The notes under the pieces are model-generated. The model was not told the DNA's origin. It searched no databases and was given only the letters and a program-made list of their open reading frames with translations. A program made the translations under genes and the position numbers. A DNA stretch of 19,502 nucleotides from an uncultured Endomicrobiia bacterium (GTDB lineage: Bacteria; Elusimicrobiota; Endomicrobiia; Endomicrobiales; Endomicrobiaceae): positions 1 through 19,502 of the forward strand of contig CAJOOL010000101.1 in the NCBI GenBank assembly GCA_905236115.1. Direction: 5' to 3'. This document shows, piece by piece, positions 2,010 through 11,492 of this stretch. How positions within the stretch are numbered: position 1 is the first letter of the stretch; each line of letters opens with the position of its first letter.

Positions 2010-2093
2010 ATGAAAGAAATAAAAAGAGATACTTATTTCAATTATACCACAAATCAAAGTTTTTATCAACAAAAAAAATTTCAAAATCAATAA
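2010..2093 (+). pseudogene. 5' remnant of a third DUF4143 ATPase gene
   Basis: A strong Shine-Dalgarno (AAGGAGG, 1997-2003) precedes ATG 2010. The frame starts MKEIKRDTYF, which matches the start of copy 1 (MYIKRDFYLK) and the usual opening of this family. After about ten codons it runs into a 42-nt repeat that is a minus-strand promoter (2040-2081) and stops at 2091-2093 after 27 codons. It is probably what remains of an ATPase gene cut by recombination or insertion of the promoter-bearing repeat. No downstream ATPase sequence in this frame remains before the next ATPase gene. Confidence 0.6.
2040..2081 (-). repeat. 42-nt exact repeat carrying a minus-strand promoter (copy without the RNA)
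   Basis: Identical to 4427-4468. Read on the minus strand it holds -35 TTGATA (2069-2064), a 17-nt spacer and -10 TATAAT (2046-2041) with an upstream TGG. Here it is not followed by the structured RNA; it points across the ATPase remnant. Confidence 0.8.
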
Positions 2094-2306: not shown

Positions 2307-3698
2307 ATGAAATTAAAAATGACGGGAAAAGACATAAACATGGAAAAAAACACAATACTTAAACCTACCCAAAAACTATTCGGCAGAACTTTTTACATGG
2401 AAAAACTGGATAAACTAAAAGCAAGTCCTGATTTAGTTAAAATAATTACGGGCGTTAGAAGATGCGGAAAATCTAAGCTTTTGGAAATGTTTCAATTTAA
2501 ACTGCAAACAGAGAATAATATTCAAAATAGTCAAATAATCAGCATAAACCTTGAAGACAATTTACAAACAGAGGAAATAGGTTTAAAATTTAATTCAAAT
2601 AAATTATTTGAAAGTTATGAAAAACTGATATCTTTTGTTATGGCAAAACTGCAGCCTGATAAAATGAATTATATTTTTATAGATGAAATTCAGCTGCTTG
2701 AAAATTGGCAAATGGCTGTAAATACTCTTCGTCTTCGTGAAAATACGGATATTTATCTGACAGGTTCAAATGCTTATATGTTTTCAAGTGATTTAGCTAA
2801 TACTTTTGGCGGAAGATATATAGAAATAAAAATGCAGCCTTTAACTTTCAAAGAATATTTTTCGGCATATCCTATGACAGCTCAGTTTACAACTTTTACA
2901 AAAGAAGATGTTTTTAACCTTAGAAATCCGGAATATTTATTTCGTAAATATATAAGTGAAAGCGGTTTTCCGCAGACGGTAAATGCTTTCTGGAACAAGC
3001 AGGTTATAGACGATTATGTTACTGACGTCGTTTATAACAATACCGTTCAAAAAGATATTGTAAAAAGATTTAAACTTGAAAATTCCGAAAATCTGGAAAG
3101 AGTAGTTTCTTTTCTTTTTGATAATATAGGAAGTGAAATATCAAATAAAAATATACTGAATTCGTTAAGAGCGGCAGAACATAAAATATCTGCACAAAGC
3201 ATAGATGTTTATATAAAAGGTTTAACAGACAGTTACCTTATGTATGAATGCAAGCGGTATGATATTAAAGGCAAAAAATATTTAAATAATAATTCAAAAT
3301 ACTATGTTTGTGATGTCGGACTAAGAAAAATTCTTTTAGGGCGGCAAGATATTGATATGGGACATATTCTTGAAAATGTAGTTTTTTTGGAATTAATAAA
3401 CAGAGGCTATAAAGTTTATGTAGGCAAAATTCCGCAATTTATTAAGAAAGACGGAAAAACGGAAAGGAAAATTCTTGAAATAGATTTTGTCGCACAGAAG
3501 CCCGGCGAACCTGTAGAATATTATCAGGTAGCATACTATGCTTTGGAAACCGAAACCTTAAAAAGGGAACTTACACCGCTTGAAAAGATAAAAGATAATC
3601 ATCCGAAATTTCTGCTTTCTATGGACTACGGCTCAGGCGATAACAATGGAATAAAAAGAATAAACGTTCTTGACTGGCTTTTGAATATAAAAAAATAA
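2307..3698 (+). CDS. AAA-family ATPase with C-terminal DUF4143 domain (copy 2)
   Basis: Paralogue of 415-1710 with the same layout. Walker A is GVRRCGKS, Walker B IFIDE, and there is a TGSN motif. The C-terminal PD-(D/E)XK-like region shows ENVVFLEL, EIDFV and YYQVAYYAL, again without a clear catalytic lysine. ATG 2307 (463 aa) is the first start after the predicted transcription start but has no good Shine-Dalgarno. ATG 2340 (452 aa) is the alternative, and the family homology begins after both. The gene has its own promoter with three 40-nt repeats upstream and a terminator-like hairpin downstream. Sequence divergence from copy 1 is large, so this is an old duplication or a separate acquisition. 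No cellular function can be named. Confidence 0.88.
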   Translation: MKLKMTGKDINMEKNTILKPTQKLFGRTFYMEKLDKLKASPDLVKIITGVRRCGKSKLLEMFQFKLQTENNIQNSQIISINLEDNLQTEEIGLKFNSNKLFESYEKLISFVMAKLQPDKMNYIFIDEIQLLENWQMAVNTLRLRENTDIYLTGSNAYMFSSDLANTFGGRYIEIKMQPLTFKEYFSAYPMTAQFTTFTKEDVFNLRNPEYLFRKYISESGFPQTVNAFWNKQVIDDYVTDVVYNNTVQKDIVKRFKLENSENLERVVSFLFDNIGSEISNKNILNSLRAAEHKISAQSIDVYIKGLTDSYLMYECKRYDIKGKKYLNNNSKYYVCDVGLRKILLGRQDIDMGHILENVVFLELINRGYKVYVGKIPQFIKKDGKTERKILEIDFVAQKPGEPVEYYQVAYYALETETLKRELTPLEKIKDNHPKFLLSMDYGSGDNNGIKRINVLDWLLNIKK

Positions 3699-3763: not shown

Positions 3764-3832
3764 CTCAAGAAATACAGCTATGAAGAGTTTCTTTTGTTTT
3801 AAATTACTGCATATTGAAGAATATATTTAAAC

Positions 3833-4117
3833 TTAACGATCATTATACTCTTCAATAGTTGAACCACTATTTATGTAATACCACAATGCTAACCATGTTT
3901 TTCCATTAGTTCTTAATTCTGACGGTTTTAATACTGCAAACCATGTATAATTTTTTGGGGATTCACTTGAATTTGAAGTATCATAAAATATAGAAAAATA
4001 TTTATTACCACGGGCATCAATTCCTAATATCTGTCTTGCCCGCGATGTTGCCCGAATGCCTTTGTCGGGAATCTTGCCGTTTTGTTGTTGCTGTTTCCAT
4101 ACATCCGGTCTTCCCAT
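3833..4117 (-). CDS. Unrecognised small protein with LGIDARGNKYF motif
   Basis: A 94-residue frame from ATG 4117. It has a basic, Gln-rich N-terminus, then LGIDARGNKYF near residues 31-41 and a hydrophobic stretch containing YTWFAVLKPSEL. I do not recognise the family. LGIDARGNKYF and the later LKP(S/K)(E/D)L recur in the second unit at 6508-6735, so the domain is real and duplicated. ATG 4117 has no Shine-Dalgarno of its own. A good one (AAGGAG, 4156-4151) serves ATG 4143 in another frame. Adding one A to the A5 run at 4122-4118 would join the two into a 103-residue protein. It lies directly downstream of the structured RNA and its terminator, in the same orientation. It may be frameshifted, slippage-expressed or translationally coupled. 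Confidence 0.6.
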   Translation of the reverse strand: MGRPDVWKQQQQNGKIPDKGIRATSRARQILGIDARGNKYFSIFYDTSNSSESPKNYTWFAVLKPSELRTNGKTWLALWYYINSGSTIEEYNDR

Positions 4118-4143
4118 TTTTCAATCTGTTTTAATTTTTTCAT
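4024..4143 (-). CDS. Short frame with good RBS, probably the true N-terminus of the 3833 ORF
   Basis: ATG 4143 lies seven nt after a perfect AAGGAG. The frame runs 39 codons (begins MKKLKQIEK) to TAG at 4026-4024. Its first nine codons would fuse in phase to the 94-residue ORF if one A were added in the A5 run at 4122-4118. The remaining codons read through the neighbour's DNA and look like out-of-frame sequence. It is most likely the start of one gene broken by a one-base deletion; a genuine short leader peptide is possible. Confidence 0.4.
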   Translation of the reverse strand: MKKLKQIEKWEDRMYGNSNNKTARFPTKAFGQHRGQDRY

Positions 4144-4195
4144 AACATTTCTCCTTTTGGTTTTTATTCTTTTTGGATTTTACGAAAGAAATGTT
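4144..4195 (-). promoter_or_regulatory. Inverted repeat that could mask the RBS of the small ORF
   Basis: On the minus strand AACATTTCT (4195-4187) is a perfect complement of AGAAATGTT (4152-4144). The second arm includes the end of the Shine-Dalgarno and runs to the base before ATG 4143. In RNA, folding would partly sequester the ribosome site. Confidence 0.45.
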
Positions 4196-4205
4196 TTGCT
4201 TAAAC

Positions 4206-4249
4206 AAAAAAGCTGTGTCAGGTGGATTGGAAGCCGTTCCTGACACAGC
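4206..4249 (-). terminator. Intrinsic terminator of the structured RNA
   Basis: A perfect 11-bp stem, CCTGACACAGC (4239-4249 on the plus strand) with GCTGTGTCAGG (4212-4222), is followed on the minus strand by six T (4211-4206). The 16-nt loop carries the segment complementary to 4350-4359. Confidence 0.85.
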
Positions 4250-4421
4250 CGTCGTTCATTTGCCCTAAAGGGCAAAGAACCAAATTATAAAAATAAATCA
4301 ACATAGCTTCTGATTTATTTTCACAAAATTTTAAACGACTGCTTTTGGACTTCCAATCCTCTTTTGTTTTCACAAAAGCGGTCTGCTTTCGCAGATCCAA
4401 AAACATTGATATTGAGTTTAT
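4206..4421 (-). ncRNA. Candidate structured RNA of about 215 nt, no known family recognised
   Basis: The predicted transcript runs from about 4421 (seven nt after the -10) to the T-run at 4206. Perfect hairpins in order (given as minus-strand RNA): TCTGC-GAAA-GCAGA (4395-4382); CTTTTGT-GAAA-ACAAAAG (4378-4361); an 11-bp stem AAAATAAATCA/TGATTTATTTT with a 10-nt loop (4321-4290); TTTGCCC-TTTA-GGGCAAA (4276-4259); and the terminator stem. A 6-bp stem (GTCGTT 4339-4334 with AACGAC 4256-4251) encloses the third and fourth hairpins. GGATTGGAAG (4359-4350) is complementary to CTTCCAATCC in the terminator loop (4233-4224), a possible pseudoknot. A 62-codon frame crosses the region but has no Shine-Dalgarno and follows the stems, so I treat this as RNA. 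A diverged 5' copy lies at 6493-6575. Confidence 0.65.
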
Positions 4422-4427
4422 ATCTTA

Positions 4428-4456
4428 ATTATACCACAAATCAAAGTTTTTATCAA
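4428..4456 (-). promoter_or_regulatory. Strong promoter of the structured RNA
   Basis: On the minus strand: TTGATA (4456-4451), exactly 17 nt, TATAAT (4433-4428) with TGG just upstream, giving an extended -10. It lies within the 42-nt sequence 4427-4468, which is repeated exactly at 2040-2081. Confidence 0.8.
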
Positions 4457-4480
4457 CAAAAAAAATTTTTTCTTGGCTAT

Positions 4481-4495
4481 TCAGCGTTTCCCTAA
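4481..4495 (-). repeat. Head fragment of the dispersed repeat family
   Basis: On the minus strand this reads TTAGGGAAACGCTGA, an almost exact match to the head AGGAAACGCTGA with one extra G. It sits just upstream of the promoter of the structured RNA and may mark the outer edge of that unit. Confidence 0.5.
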
Positions 4496-4567
4496 GAAAT
4501 AAAAAAATTTAATTTTATCAATAAATGTAAAAATATAAAAAAACAATTAAGTTTATGACGAAATGAA

Positions 4568-4622
4568 GAAACTCGCAAATGCAGTGTACGTAAGTGAAAC
4601 GGTACATAAGTTTGCGAGTTTC
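4568..4622. other. Long hairpin downstream of the rubrerythrin operon
   Basis: A perfect 12-bp inverted repeat GAAACTCGCAAA (4568-4579) / TTTGCGAGTTTC (4611-4622) encloses a second stem TGTAC (4585-4589) / GTACA (4602-4606). It starts 37 nt after the stop of the last operon gene, read on the minus strand. No clean T-run follows on either strand, so it may stabilise the mRNA 3' end or be a small palindromic element rather than a terminator. Confidence 0.6.
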
Positions 4623-4659
4623 AATATTATAGTCCAAAATTTACTGTTTTTTCGTCAGG

Positions 4660-5199
4660 TTATTTGGAAAAGTATCTCTTCAAAAGTCCGTCAAAGCCTT
4701 TCCCATGTCTTGCCTCATCTTTTGCCATTTCATGAACCGTGTCATGTATTGCATCATAGCCGAGCTCTTTAGCTCTCTTGGCAAGCATAAGTTTACCGTC
4801 GCAGGCACCATGTTCCGCAGCTGCTCTGAGTTCCAAATTTTTCTTAGTGCAGTCGGTAACAACTTCACCTAAAAGCTCCGCAAATTTTGCAGCATGTTCG
4901 GCTTCTTCAAAAGCATATCTTTTATATGCTTCGGCAATTTCAGGATAGCCCTCTCTTTCTGCCACTCTGGACATTGCCAAATACATACCTACTTCACAGC
5001 ATTCACCGGAAAAGTTTGATCTTAATCCTTCCATAATTTCTTTATCTTCTACTTTACCGTCGCCTACATGATGTTCAGTTGCATAAACTTTTTCACCTTC
5101 GGAAACTTCATTAAATTCCGTTGCTCCGCATATGGGGCATTTTTCCGGCTTTGTGCCGTCTTCGGATACCCATCCGCACACTTTACATACATATTTCAT
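4660..5199 (-). CDS. Reverse rubrerythrin (N-terminal rubredoxin-like domain)
   Basis: A cytoplasmic non-haem iron peroxidase. Such proteins reduce hydrogen peroxide (and oxygen in some clostridia) with electrons from NADH-linked carriers. It has 179 aa. The N-terminal rubredoxin-like knuckle has Cys 5, 8, 21 and 24. The four-helix ferritin-like domain carries diiron ligand motifs within [14 protein letters not shown] and [10 protein letters not shown]. This domain order is the reverse of classical rubrerythrin, which is the gene immediately upstream. GGAGG lies seven nt before ATG 5199. It is the last gene of a three-gene operon, 65 nt after its neighbour. The family assignment is strong; which oxidant it prefers cannot be read from sequence. 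Confidence 0.9.
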
Positions 5200-5264
5200 T
5201 TTATTACCTCCATCCCTCTATACATCTATACTTCCATACTTCCCAAAATTTGCTTTGCAAATTT

Positions 5265-5840
5265 TTAATAGTTCTCTACAAAAACTTCCTGATATGCTTT
5301 TGAATGTTTGCAGGCAGGGCATTCGTCAAGAGCCTCTTTGCTTTCATATACATATCCGCAGTTTCTGCATTTCCAGCGGACAACACCGTCTTTGCAGAAT
5401 ACTTTTTCATATTTAATATTTTCCAGCAGTTTTCTGTATCTTTTTTCGTGTGCCGCTTCAACTTTTGCAATGTATTTGAATGCTTCGGCAATTTCTTCAA
5501 AACCTTCTTCTTCGGCCACCCTTGCAAACTCCGGATATGCTTTCGTCCATTCTTCATTTTCTCCGTCGGCAGCAGCCTGTAAATTTTCTGCGGTGGTTCC
5601 TATTTTGCCTGCAGGAAAAGAAGCGGTAATTTCGGCTTCGCCGCCCTCTAAAAATTTAAAAAATCTTTTTGCGTGTTCTTTTTCGTTATCTGCCGTTTCG
5701 GTAAAAACAGCTGATATTTGTTCATAACCTTCTTTCTTTGCCGCAGAAGCAAAAAAAGTGTATCTTGTCCTTGCCTGAGATTCCCCTGCAAAAGACTGAA
5801 GCAGATTTTTTTCCGTCTTTGTTCCTTTTAAACTTTTCAT
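5265..5840 (-). CDS. rbr: Rubrerythrin
   Basis: Classical rubrerythrin, 191 aa: a ferritin-like diiron domain followed by a C-terminal rubredoxin domain. It reduces hydrogen peroxide to water in anaerobes. Diiron motifs include ESQARTRY near the N-terminus, DNEKEH, EFARVAEEEGF and EAAHEKRY. The rubredoxin end shows CRNCG and CPAC. The start is ATG 5840, preceded by GGAGG at seven nt. A longer frame from TTG 5852 would begin within the ribosome site and is rejected. It sits between superoxide reductase (60-nt gap) and reverse rubrerythrin (65-nt gap) and fits a pathway from superoxide to peroxide to water. A short AT hairpin follows the stop (AAATTTGC/GCAAATTT). Confidence 0.95.
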   Translation of the reverse strand: MKSLKGTKTEKNLLQSFAGESQARTRYTFFASAAKKEGYEQISAVFTETADNEKEHAKRFFKFLEGGEAEITASFPAGKIGTTAENLQAAADGENEEWTKAYPEFARVAEEEGFEEIAEAFKYIAKVEAAHEKRYRKLLENIKYEKVFCKDGVVRWKCRNCGYVYESKEALDECPACKHSKAYQEVFVENY

Positions 5841-5899
5841 TTTTTCCTCCAATAATTTATCAAAAATACTTCAAAAATTCTTTAAAATTTCTTTAAAAA

Positions 5900-6346
5900 T
5901 TATTCCAATTCCGATATCCAGTTTCCGTGAATATTGCACTGTGCAATAATGGAAATTTTTCTGCCTTTTACATCAAGAGCAATCATTCCCGCAGGTTTAA
6001 GCTCCGGTGTCAATGCTATGCCGCCGACATATTCCTTATCGGCATAAAACATTATATTTGTAATGTAATGTTCCGGAATCATCGGGTGGACAAGCTCGCC
6101 GACTTTAACCTTTATTTTTTCGCACTGACCGTTTGCATCACTGCAGCATTTTGAAACTTCTTTTGTTATCACGGGAAGATGTTTCTTGTGGCTTTCGCCT
6201 GTGGTAACAATATCGTCTTTTGTCTTTAATGCGTCTTCTTTCATATTAAACGCTTTTGAACCTGCACCGCACACGGGACATTTTTCCGGTGCATTTTCTT
6301 TTAAATGAACATAACCGCATACGGAACAAACTAAGGCTTTTTGCAT
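5900..6346 (-). CDS. Superoxide reductase with N-terminal rubredoxin-like domain
   Basis: Reduces superoxide to hydrogen peroxide at a mononuclear iron site. It has 148 aa. The N-terminal zinc/iron knuckle has Cys 7, 10, 23 and 26. The superoxide reductase domain has candidate ligands His 56 (KKHLP), His 87 (VHPM), His 93 (EHYI), Cys 137 and His 140 (CNIHG). The spacings 87/93 and 137/140 are those of known enzymes. The usual Glu two residues before the first His (EKH) is Lys here. A short insert with Cys 67, 68 and 75 lies between the first and second His. AAAGGAG precedes ATG 6346. It is the first gene of the operon, behind a consensus promoter at 6388-6416. Its product is the substrate of the two downstream rubrerythrins. 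Confidence 0.9.
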   Translation of the reverse strand: MQKALVCSVCGYVHLKENAPEKCPVCGAGSKAFNMKEDALKTKDDIVTTGESHKKHLPVITKEVSKCCSDANGQCEKIKVKVGELVHPMIPEHYITNIMFYADKEYVGGIALTPELKPAGMIALDVKGRKISIIAQCNIHGNWISELE

Positions 6347-6457: not shown

Positions 6458-6486
6458 TTGCCAAAAAGGAAATTTTAAGGTATAAT
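6458..6486 (+). promoter_or_regulatory. Promoter of the second RNA/ORF unit
   Basis: TTGCCA (6458-6463), 17 nt, TATAAT (6481-6486). From GGTATAATT onward the sequence follows the promoter and RNA start of the first unit closely, while the -35 region differs. Confidence 0.75.
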
Positions 6487-6492
6487 TTGTTT

Positions 6493-6575
6493 ATAAACTT
6501 AATATTAATGTTTTTGGAATCCGAAAAGGATCTCTTTTGCAAAAGCAAATGGAGCACCAAACCAAAAACAGACGT
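6493..6575 (+). ncRNA. Truncated second copy of the structured RNA (5' part)
   Basis: TATAAACTTAATATTAATG followed by TTTTTGGA matches the first copy (4416-4396, minus strand) with two changes. Two hairpin positions are kept with different stem sequence: ATCC-GAAAA-GGAT, then TTTGC-AAAA-GCAAA, followed by a CCAAA-rich segment resembling CCAAAAGCAG of copy 1. The later hairpins, the pseudoknot partner and the terminator are missing; the sequence passes directly into the LGIDARGNKYF coding part. Confidence 0.55.
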
Positions 6576-6735
6576 ATTAGGAATAGATGCTCGTGGCAAT
6601 AAATATTTTACTAAGTTTCGCGTGGGATATGGTGCTTATGGTAATATAGATCCAAAAATTGCATTTACTGCGGCTGCTTTAAAACCTAAAGATTTACAGA
6701 AATCTGAGGATGAAGCATTACAGGAATTTTTCTAA
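6508..6735 (+). pseudogene. Deleted copy of the LGIDARGNKYF ORF, fused to RNA-derived sequence
   Basis: Open from ATG 6508 (75 codons) or from TTG 6487, but no Shine-Dalgarno precedes either. The first 25 or so codons are translation of the RNA part. From codon 27 the sequence reads LGIDARGNKYF and later FTAAALKPKDL, matching the small ORF at 3833-4117. The end differs (shorter, acidic). It is best explained by an internal deletion that removed the second half of the RNA and the start of the ORF. Whether the fused frame is expressed is unknown. Confidence 0.55.
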
Positions 6736-11418: not shown

Positions 11419-11492
11419 CGGGGTGTAGCACAGTTGGCTAGTGCGCTCCCTTCGGGTGGGAGAGGTCGCTGGTTCAAATCCGGTCACCCCGA
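11419..11492 (+). tRNA. tRNA-Pro (anticodon CGG)
   Basis: Acceptor CGGGGTG (11419-11425) pairs with CACCCCG (11485-11491), with discriminator A at 11492. The anticodon stem CTCCC/GGGAG carries loop TTCGGGT, anticodon CGG. The T-arm contains GGTTCAAATCC. The C1-G72 pair and A73 fit tRNA-Pro. CCA is not encoded. It begins one nt after the MerR stop codon. Confidence 0.95.

Follow-up and report, generated by a model that had tools for sequence, protein, structure and literature searches.

A multi-copy family of structured RNAs ahead of pilin and other genes in Elusimicrobiota: candidate attenuation leaders with a hypervariable long-range helix

Introduction

Leaders that attenuate transcription, such as riboswitch and T-box leaders, stand 5' of a gene, form mutually exclusive antiterminator and terminator helices, and carry a P1-type stem, one strand of which is common to the antiterminator. 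Antitermination by NusG paralogues is known for pilus and polysaccharide operons, and the leaders on which RfaH and LoaP act bear terminators ahead of surface and pilus operons. An RNA linked to the pilin gene pilE of Neisseria gonorrhoeae is reportedly needed for pilin antigenic variation by gene conversion. It is described as a small cis-acting RNA (PMC3547852). The accessible portions of the literature on Elusimicrobia riboswitches and on the Elusimicrobium minutum pilin describe no RNA of the kind reported here.

The window analyzed here is a 19,502-nt stretch of DNA from an uncultured Endomicrobiia bacterium (Endomicrobiaceae; assembly GCA_905236115.1, contig CAJOOL010000101.1), and an element on its minus strand is a member of a multi-copy RNA family without a match in Rfam 15. 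Like riboswitch and T-box leaders, members lie 5' of genes, can be folded into exclusive antiterminator and terminator structures, and share a strand of P1 with the predicted antiterminator; unlike them, they have a hypervariable outer antiterminator helix and no Rfam match, and they are found ahead of pilin and accessory genes, as many as tens of times in a genome. As with the gonococcal RNA, a non-coding RNA is (here, by prediction) transcribed adjoining a pilin gene, whereas here it is a structured leader before many genes, 42 of the 92 scanned bearing a pilin motif. The terminator-bearing position ahead of surface genes recalls RfaH and LoaP leaders, from which the family differs in its self-contained three-arm layout and in that RNA-bearing genomes as a rule show no second NusG at Pfam sensitivity, G127 being the exception.

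Results

The element runs from 4468 to 4206 (Table 1). Its promoter matches the consensus at 11 of 12 positions (-35 TTGATA at 4456-4451, -10 TATAAT at 4433-4428, a 17-nt spacer, TG before the -10). A scan of 1001 bases returned six promoter-like sites, of which this is the best, compared with 4.6 ± 2.1 in shuffles. In the RNA, P1 encloses two hairpins with GAAA loops and is followed by two further hairpins and an intrinsic terminator, the loop of which holds CTTCCAATCC (4233-4224), the exact 10-nt complement of GGATTGGAAG (4359-4350). The minimum free energy is -81.3 kcal/mol, compared with -45.0 ± 4.2 in shuffles (z -8.6), and none of 200 shuffles reached it. An earlier note, made from the letters, had described the promoter, the four hairpins (two with GAAA loops), the enclosing stem, the terminator and the 10-nt complement; all are present, and the structured fold that it proposed is far from chance. 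The terminator hairpin at 4250-4211 has no entry in a terminator scan, whose loop limit of 8 it exceeds, and a Pfam search with the 62-aa frame inside the RNA gave no match.

Table 1. Coordinates of the element and of related features in the window
Feature	Position	Strand	Basis or remark
Promoter	4428..4456	-	Promoter scan; similar region upstream of other copies in the genus
Leader RNA core	4202..4405	-	Covariance-model match, 81.8 bits, among the more divergent copies
P1 5' strand TGTTTTTGGAT	4395..4405	-	Predicted to be freed once the antiterminator forms
Hairpin 1, GAAA loop	4383..4394	-	Minimum-free-energy (MFE) fold
Hairpin 2, GAAA loop	4361..4378	-	MFE fold
PK, hypervariable strand GGATTGGAAG	4350..4359	-	Outer strand of the proposed antiterminator
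P1 3' strand	4340..4350	-	Overlaps antiterminator arm 1
Antiterminator arm 1 GCAGTCGTT	4334..4342	-	9 pairs with arm 2, 6 of them Watson-Crick
Hairpin 3, variant with loop AAGCTATG	4285..4326	-	Same variant in L048 (G004) and L053 (G008)
Hairpin 4	4259..4276	-	MFE fold
Arm 2 GACGGCTGT	4245..4253	-	Partner is arm 1 or, partly, the terminator 3' arm
PK' CTTCCAATCC in the terminator loop, complementary to PK	4224..4233	-	Sequence complementarity
Intrinsic terminator hairpin GGCTGTGTCAGG ... CCTGACACAGCT	4211..4250	-	MFE fold
Terminator T run	4206..4211	-	Sequence
Downstream frame	3833..4117	-	LGIDARGNKYF segment; no Pfam match
Partial second copy, 5' half	6479..6618	+	Joined to frame 6487-6735 bearing LGIDARGNKYF
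Fragment matching the promoter-side part alone	2034..2081	-	BLAST

Further copies, which were beyond the reach of the earlier note, occur elsewhere in this genome and across the phylum. BLAST against its own genome returned further copies, and seven copies examined in full have the same anatomy, each with a perfect complement of 10-12 nt at the same two places and with a complement sequence that differs from copy to copy. A covariance model built from 14 copies (R1) matched 9 of the 11 genomes of the window's genus, 13 of the 76 of its family, and, in the phylum Elusimicrobiota, 92 of 340 genomes spread over 8 of 100 genera; this phylum-wide scan scored 7 candidates per genome, so that it gives minimum copy numbers. 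Among the 92, G203 (family f16) was a weak match that disappeared with the later model, R2. The second large RNA-bearing group, f15, we take to be the Elusimicrobiaceae. The window's genome holds 14 matches at E<=0.001 and G008 holds 29, a few in each being partial or antisense; G004 has 22 and G184 has 48 (R2), 40 of which were used in sequence comparisons.

Rfam 15 gave no family at gathering score on the RNA, its sole match in the window being a tRNA (11419-11492). A permissive search of 3800-4700 yielded weak matches on the RNA, far below gathering scores, and the same search of 19 related loci yielded no recurring family and none at gathering level. Phage and plasmid collections contained no match to the window copy or to L107, and viral contigs none to two patterns. 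Among 21 matches in a pattern scan of named genomes, the only one outside Elusimicrobiota (Mobilisporobacter L113) had no covariance-model support and was discarded.

The nested helices covary. In an alignment of 27 sequences from both groups, made by sequence alone, 94.7% of their cells are paired and both sides changed in 40 of 56 pairs; the 258 double-change cells compare with 75.5 ± 7.9 in shuffles (0 of 500 as high), a score favored by the consensus structure having come from the same alignment. Shifting the partner by one column lowers pairing to below 50%, and the lower helix of the terminator is paired in 100% of cells. The hairpins are thus RNA structure, with the proviso that the covariation of terminator, P1, and arm 1 is not independent, because their sequences overlap. 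The earlier note had called the element a novel structured RNA of no Rfam family that its author recognized, and had named missing covariation and a known family as grounds for giving up that reading; the helices covary, no family reaches gathering level on the RNA in the window or the related loci, and the reading is supported.

The two strands of the long-range complement, PK and PK', fit their own copy. Within a copy, the complement has a median of 10 nt and reaches at least 8 nt in 57 of 60 copies (three of 63, with no recognized terminator arm, being omitted), against a median of 4 nt and 25 of 3540 across copies; within G184 alone, it reaches 8 nt in 36 of 40 against 6 of 1560, none of which reaches 9. 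In a larger set of 108 copies (106 distinct, two pairs being identical across genomes; one fragment of <150 nt left out), 100 have a complement of at least 8 nt and were kept, the 8 below that being dropped by rule, and these 100 carry 93 distinct sequences, 10-12 nt long in 81 and 10 or 11 nt long in 70. With the register set by the longest match, all four Watson-Crick pairs occur in each of ten PK columns. When G-U was allowed equally, the inner eight columns comprised 815 Watson-Crick, 13 G-U, and 12 mismatched cells (of 840), compared with 784, 70, and 52 (of 906) in hairpins 2-4, a scarcity of G-U with a p of 1e-10 that is optimistic since the sequences are related. Copies that are 75-97% identical elsewhere have a mean PK identity of 0.42-0.55, and an identity of 1.0 was found in 12 pairs at >=97%, all between genomes. 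The PK helix is, then, hypervariable and wobble-poor.

Some copies depart from this pattern. Inspection by eye found complements outside the search window in L176 (10 nt) and L170 (7 nt), and ten PK pairs, one of them G-U, in L177. PK and PK' are mismatched in L104:262-470, L091:130-333, and L180 (compared with L177); each of these has one half in common with another copy, a pattern expected of recombined leaders or of assembly chimeras. In L016:1452-1680, two head-to-head leader 5' halves with one common middle meet at PK and PK', which a rearrangement of inverted repeats or a misassembly could have produced.

A second complement adjoins the first. Arm 1, which directly follows the P1 3' strand, is AACAGUCGU in many copies, a sequence similar to the terminator right arm AACAGCCGU, and is complementary to the terminator left arm (arm 2), ACGGCUGUU. 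Seven or more pairs are possible between the arms in 78 of 105 copies (one of 106 being omitted), with a median of 8 against a shuffled mean of 5.1, and fewer than 7 in the other 27, several G008 leaders included. They also change together, as in L172 (AAAUAGUCGU with ACGGCUAUUU), and an A in arm 2 accompanies 8 of the 17 arm 1 strands in which U replaces C at one position, compared with 1 of 70. Own partners make 6.92 Watson-Crick pairs against 6.49 when permuted (101 copies; 0 of 20000 as high), the figures being 7.03 against 6.27 in G184 (0 of 20000) and 6.85 against 6.71 in the other 61 copies (58 of 20000); the effect is small and the sequences are related. PK lies directly 5' of arm 1 and PK' shortly 3' of the terminator left arm, and because of this strand order, PK:PK' and arm 1:arm 2 would combine into a single nested antiterminator that encloses hairpins 3 and 4 (fold B) and takes both the P1 3' strand and the terminator left arm.

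Nearest-neighbor predictions on the 100 copies with a PK of at least 8 nt (the 8 with shorter complements lie outside this set) show how the two folds compete. In transcripts cut directly after PK', the antiterminator with its PK helix is the minimum in 98 of 100, ahead of PK-unpaired folds by a mean of 11.4 kcal/mol, and an average of 0.08 of 8 P1 positions are predicted to remain paired. In full-length RNAs, P1 with the terminator (fold A) is preferred in 81 of 100, by a mean of 4.8 kcal/mol over all, and the minimum leaves PK paired in 19. When a foreign PK' was swapped in, the PK strand paired in 50 of 496 foldings.

The leaders stand before genes. Of 101 copies, 85 are followed by a start codon with a Shine-Dalgarno sequence no more than 300 nt beyond the RNA end, and 69 by one within 120 nt, compared with 17 and 0 of 93 for divergent starts upstream, which served as a mirror control. 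In 23 of the 101, the start is at most 36 nt away, and these genes need read-through, because space for another promoter is absent; a free-standing sRNA is hence less likely than a 5' leader. The Pfam scan, which covered 92 of the 101 chosen downstream frames, found a type IV pilin N-terminal motif in 42 and TPR repeats in 7; others, among the families listed, are glycosyltransferases, DNA methyltransferases, helicase/restriction-like proteins, and nucleases, and these 92 first frames point to no single pathway. Pilins are the sole cell appendages encoded in Endomicrobiaceae, according to one study (PMC11257099). Several genomes have 56 to 111 pilin-motif genes, and G184, G112, G153, and G166 have 76 to 111 matches in 1.4-1.8 Mb. 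With 76 such matches, G166 has zero matches to the RNA; pilin expansion can therefore be separated from the RNA. At contig ends of G008 (e.g., C36, C50, C51, C62, and C65), copies lie ~130-460 nt away with the 3' side outward; a segment common to the regions behind copies, often the pilin N-terminal part, probably breaks the assembly there.

The stretch before the gene start may itself be part of the switch. In the window's family, the P1 5' strand makes a mean of 8.0 Watson-Crick pairs with it, against 5.9 when shuffled, and at least 8 pairs in 24 of 45 copies; in f15 the figures are 5.6 against 4.9, with at least 8 in 4 of 55. The complement tracks the leader's own letters in several copies (GGGA with UCCC in L091, GGAU with AUCC in L040), and read-through minima contain both helices in 20 of 45 copies of the window's family and in 14 of 55 of f15. 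As a lead from these predictions, a P1 strand freed by the antiterminator could couple translation to the switch.

Discussion

From these alignments, foldings, and gene positions, we consider it likely that these RNAs form a new family of cis-acting leaders that would control transcription by attenuation. An intrinsic terminator stands between promoter and gene, and a conserved antiterminator uses its 5' arm, yet with the shortfall in arm pairing noted above. RNA polymerase leaving the promoter would first make P1 and the two hairpins inside it, next hairpins 3 and 4, and finally arm 2 followed by PK'. Once PK' had emerged, PK:PK' together with arm 1 (AACAGUCGU in many copies) and arm 2 (ACGGCUGUU) would close a long hairpin around hairpins 3 and 4, occupying the P1 3' strand and the terminator left arm and excluding both P1 and the terminator; we infer that this is the ON state. 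Were P1 to stay closed, or fold B to fail, arm 2 would pair with the terminator 3' arm and transcription would stop before the gene (OFF), P1 taking the role of an anti-antiterminator. We further infer a signal (a ligand, protein, or RNA) that biases the choice in the course of transcription, perhaps at the junction of arm 1:arm 2 with hairpins 3 and 4. Of four protein families considered as partners (NusG paralogue, Hfq, CsrA, and ANTAR), none tracks the RNA; ANTAR occurs in 7 of 21 genomes (4 among the 11 with the RNA, 3 among the 10 that lack it) and in none of the five RNA-bearing f15 genomes tested.

Gene control in Elusimicrobiota is, to our knowledge, poorly known. A single type of RNA switch preceding tens of genes in a 1.4-Mb genome would open a way to study how these bacteria select their surface, and we know of few cis-RNA regulons of such density. 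The hypervariable antiterminator also raises the question of whether private addresses are evolving or inverted repeats are co-evolving by template switching. Under the former, which we regard as a rather improbable extension of the attenuation model, the terminated RNA of ~200 nt would pair in trans only with nascent leaders of its own locus through its single-stranded PK and PK' and block their antiterminator, so that each of the dozens of pilin genes in a cell would be silenced by the RNA that it produces; the palindromic loops of hairpin 3 might help two RNAs meet. Such selection would explain a helix that is hypervariable and still almost perfectly Watson-Crick. Avoidance of shared PK sequences within genomes was not significant, cross-complements of at least 8 nt occurring in 5 of 768 comparisons within genomes vs 42 of 4170 between (p 0.42), and in 0 of 126 vs 11 of 602 at matched identity of 0.70-0.97 (p 0.23). 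Strong selection for pairing with drift, or the correction of inverted repeats by template switching, a mechanism described elsewhere, may instead be the source of the hypervariability.

The rival that survives best, although we hold it to be unlikely, is a true pseudoknot in which P1 and the terminator stay intact and no antiterminator forms, the RNA being a compact leader or a species of ~200 nt that serves as a stable sRNA or a stronger terminator. The full-length minimum is, as seen, fold A in 81 of 100 copies; PK' touches the 3' side of the terminator stem (0-nt linker in 91 of 99), leaving it free costs the terminator just 3.4 kcal/mol on average, and the 10 or 11 nt of PK in 70 of 100 amount to about one helical turn. 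However, a helix of 10-12 bp would, on structural grounds, be strained in a loop of nearly its own size with almost no linker, and a pseudoknot leaves the arm 1:arm 2 complement unexplained. It was our own first reading, replaced once that complement was found. The earlier note had also read the complement as a pseudoknot or, alternatively, as a helix competing with the terminator fold as a switch: the complement does exist and has been maintained, yet the anatomy favors a nested helix next to arm 1:arm 2, and the alternative is the better fit to this nesting and to the foldings. The long-range complement is probably not a pseudoknot and continues the second helix, although the terminated RNA may still form a knot.

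It is more doubtful still that the copies are free-standing, trans-acting sRNAs whose hypervariable strands are target addresses, the gene having another promoter. A promoter and a terminator are present, the strands are 93 distinct sequences in 100 copies, and 13 of 174 flanks of the loci hold an 8-mer of PK for a third time, roughly double the control rate of 0.039. Against this, the 23 gene starts within 36 nt are too close for a promoter, Hfq and CsrA were each found in 0 of 21 genomes, and the two strands vary jointly as complements, which a guide would not need.

A mobile DNA element of the MITE or attC kind, in which the repeats matter as DNA, is very improbable. The number of matches (up to 48 per genome), a downstream sequence that in the window's family resembles the reverse complement of the 5' end, and the near absence of G-U from the PK repeat (13 of 840 cells) would suit it; hairpins 2-4, by contrast, covary in the manner of RNA helices (70 G-U in 906 cells), the orientation relative to genes is fixed, and the searches of phage and plasmid collections with two copies and of viral contigs with two patterns gave no match. 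Similarity also extends upstream through the promoter, in a comparison that omitted copies whose terminator the pattern missed (the window copy included), and for this reason we dropped a reading of the downstream repeat as a transposon end. Least credible of all is a leader on which a NusG paralogue of the RfaH or LoaP type would bring about processive antitermination, for although the target genes are similar and the leader holds a terminator, two PF02357 matches occur just in G127, G165, G305, and G306 among the 284 genomes with a match, the rest having one, and the window's genus has one in 9 of 11 genomes and none in 2.

The finding is the family rather than the window copy, which is a divergent member with all parts intact. 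The frame behind it shares its LGIDARGNKYF segment with the C-terminal portion of pilin-like proteins encoded after other copies, and the pilin N-terminal motif is missing, so that gene looks remodeled or decayed; because it looks broken, the copy may no longer matter and is perhaps a relic. At 6479-6735, a leader 5' half meets a pilin-like C-terminal frame near a shared stretch of about TAxTAGGAATA, as by recombination at microhomology. Elsewhere, the window contains two neighboring AAA_14/DUF4143 ATPase genes (328-1710 and 2307-3698) and an ordinary oxygen-defense cluster of two rubrerythrins and a desulfoferrodoxin (4660-6346).

Two features of the leaders are of minor note. Hairpin 3 bears, in many copies, an apical loop of 9 nt with a 6-nt palindrome, by analogy like the dimer-initiation kissing loop of HIV-1, from which the family differs in that some distinct loops have no palindrome (4 of 12 among the shorter, 2 of 16 among the longer). 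Of the 16 distinct loops of 9-11 nt in 103 copies, 14 have a 6-nt palindrome, where 2.0 would be expected and none of 20000 shuffles gave more than 8; there are five cores (UAAUUA, UUAUAA, UUGCAA, UCUAGA, and UCAUGA) and overlapping variants, and 8 of the 12 loops of 5-8 nt have a 4-nt palindrome (expected 3.4). The loop sequences suggest kissing dimers or a two-fold symmetric partner. In f15, a Shine-Dalgarno sequence, an ATG, and an immediate stop precede the RNA in 17 of 54 copies, beside a small hairpin (e.g., upstream of L166:416 and L164:1452 on the minus strand), compared with 0 of 49 in the other group; a mini-ORF and a 5' stabilizer are candidate readings of this site.
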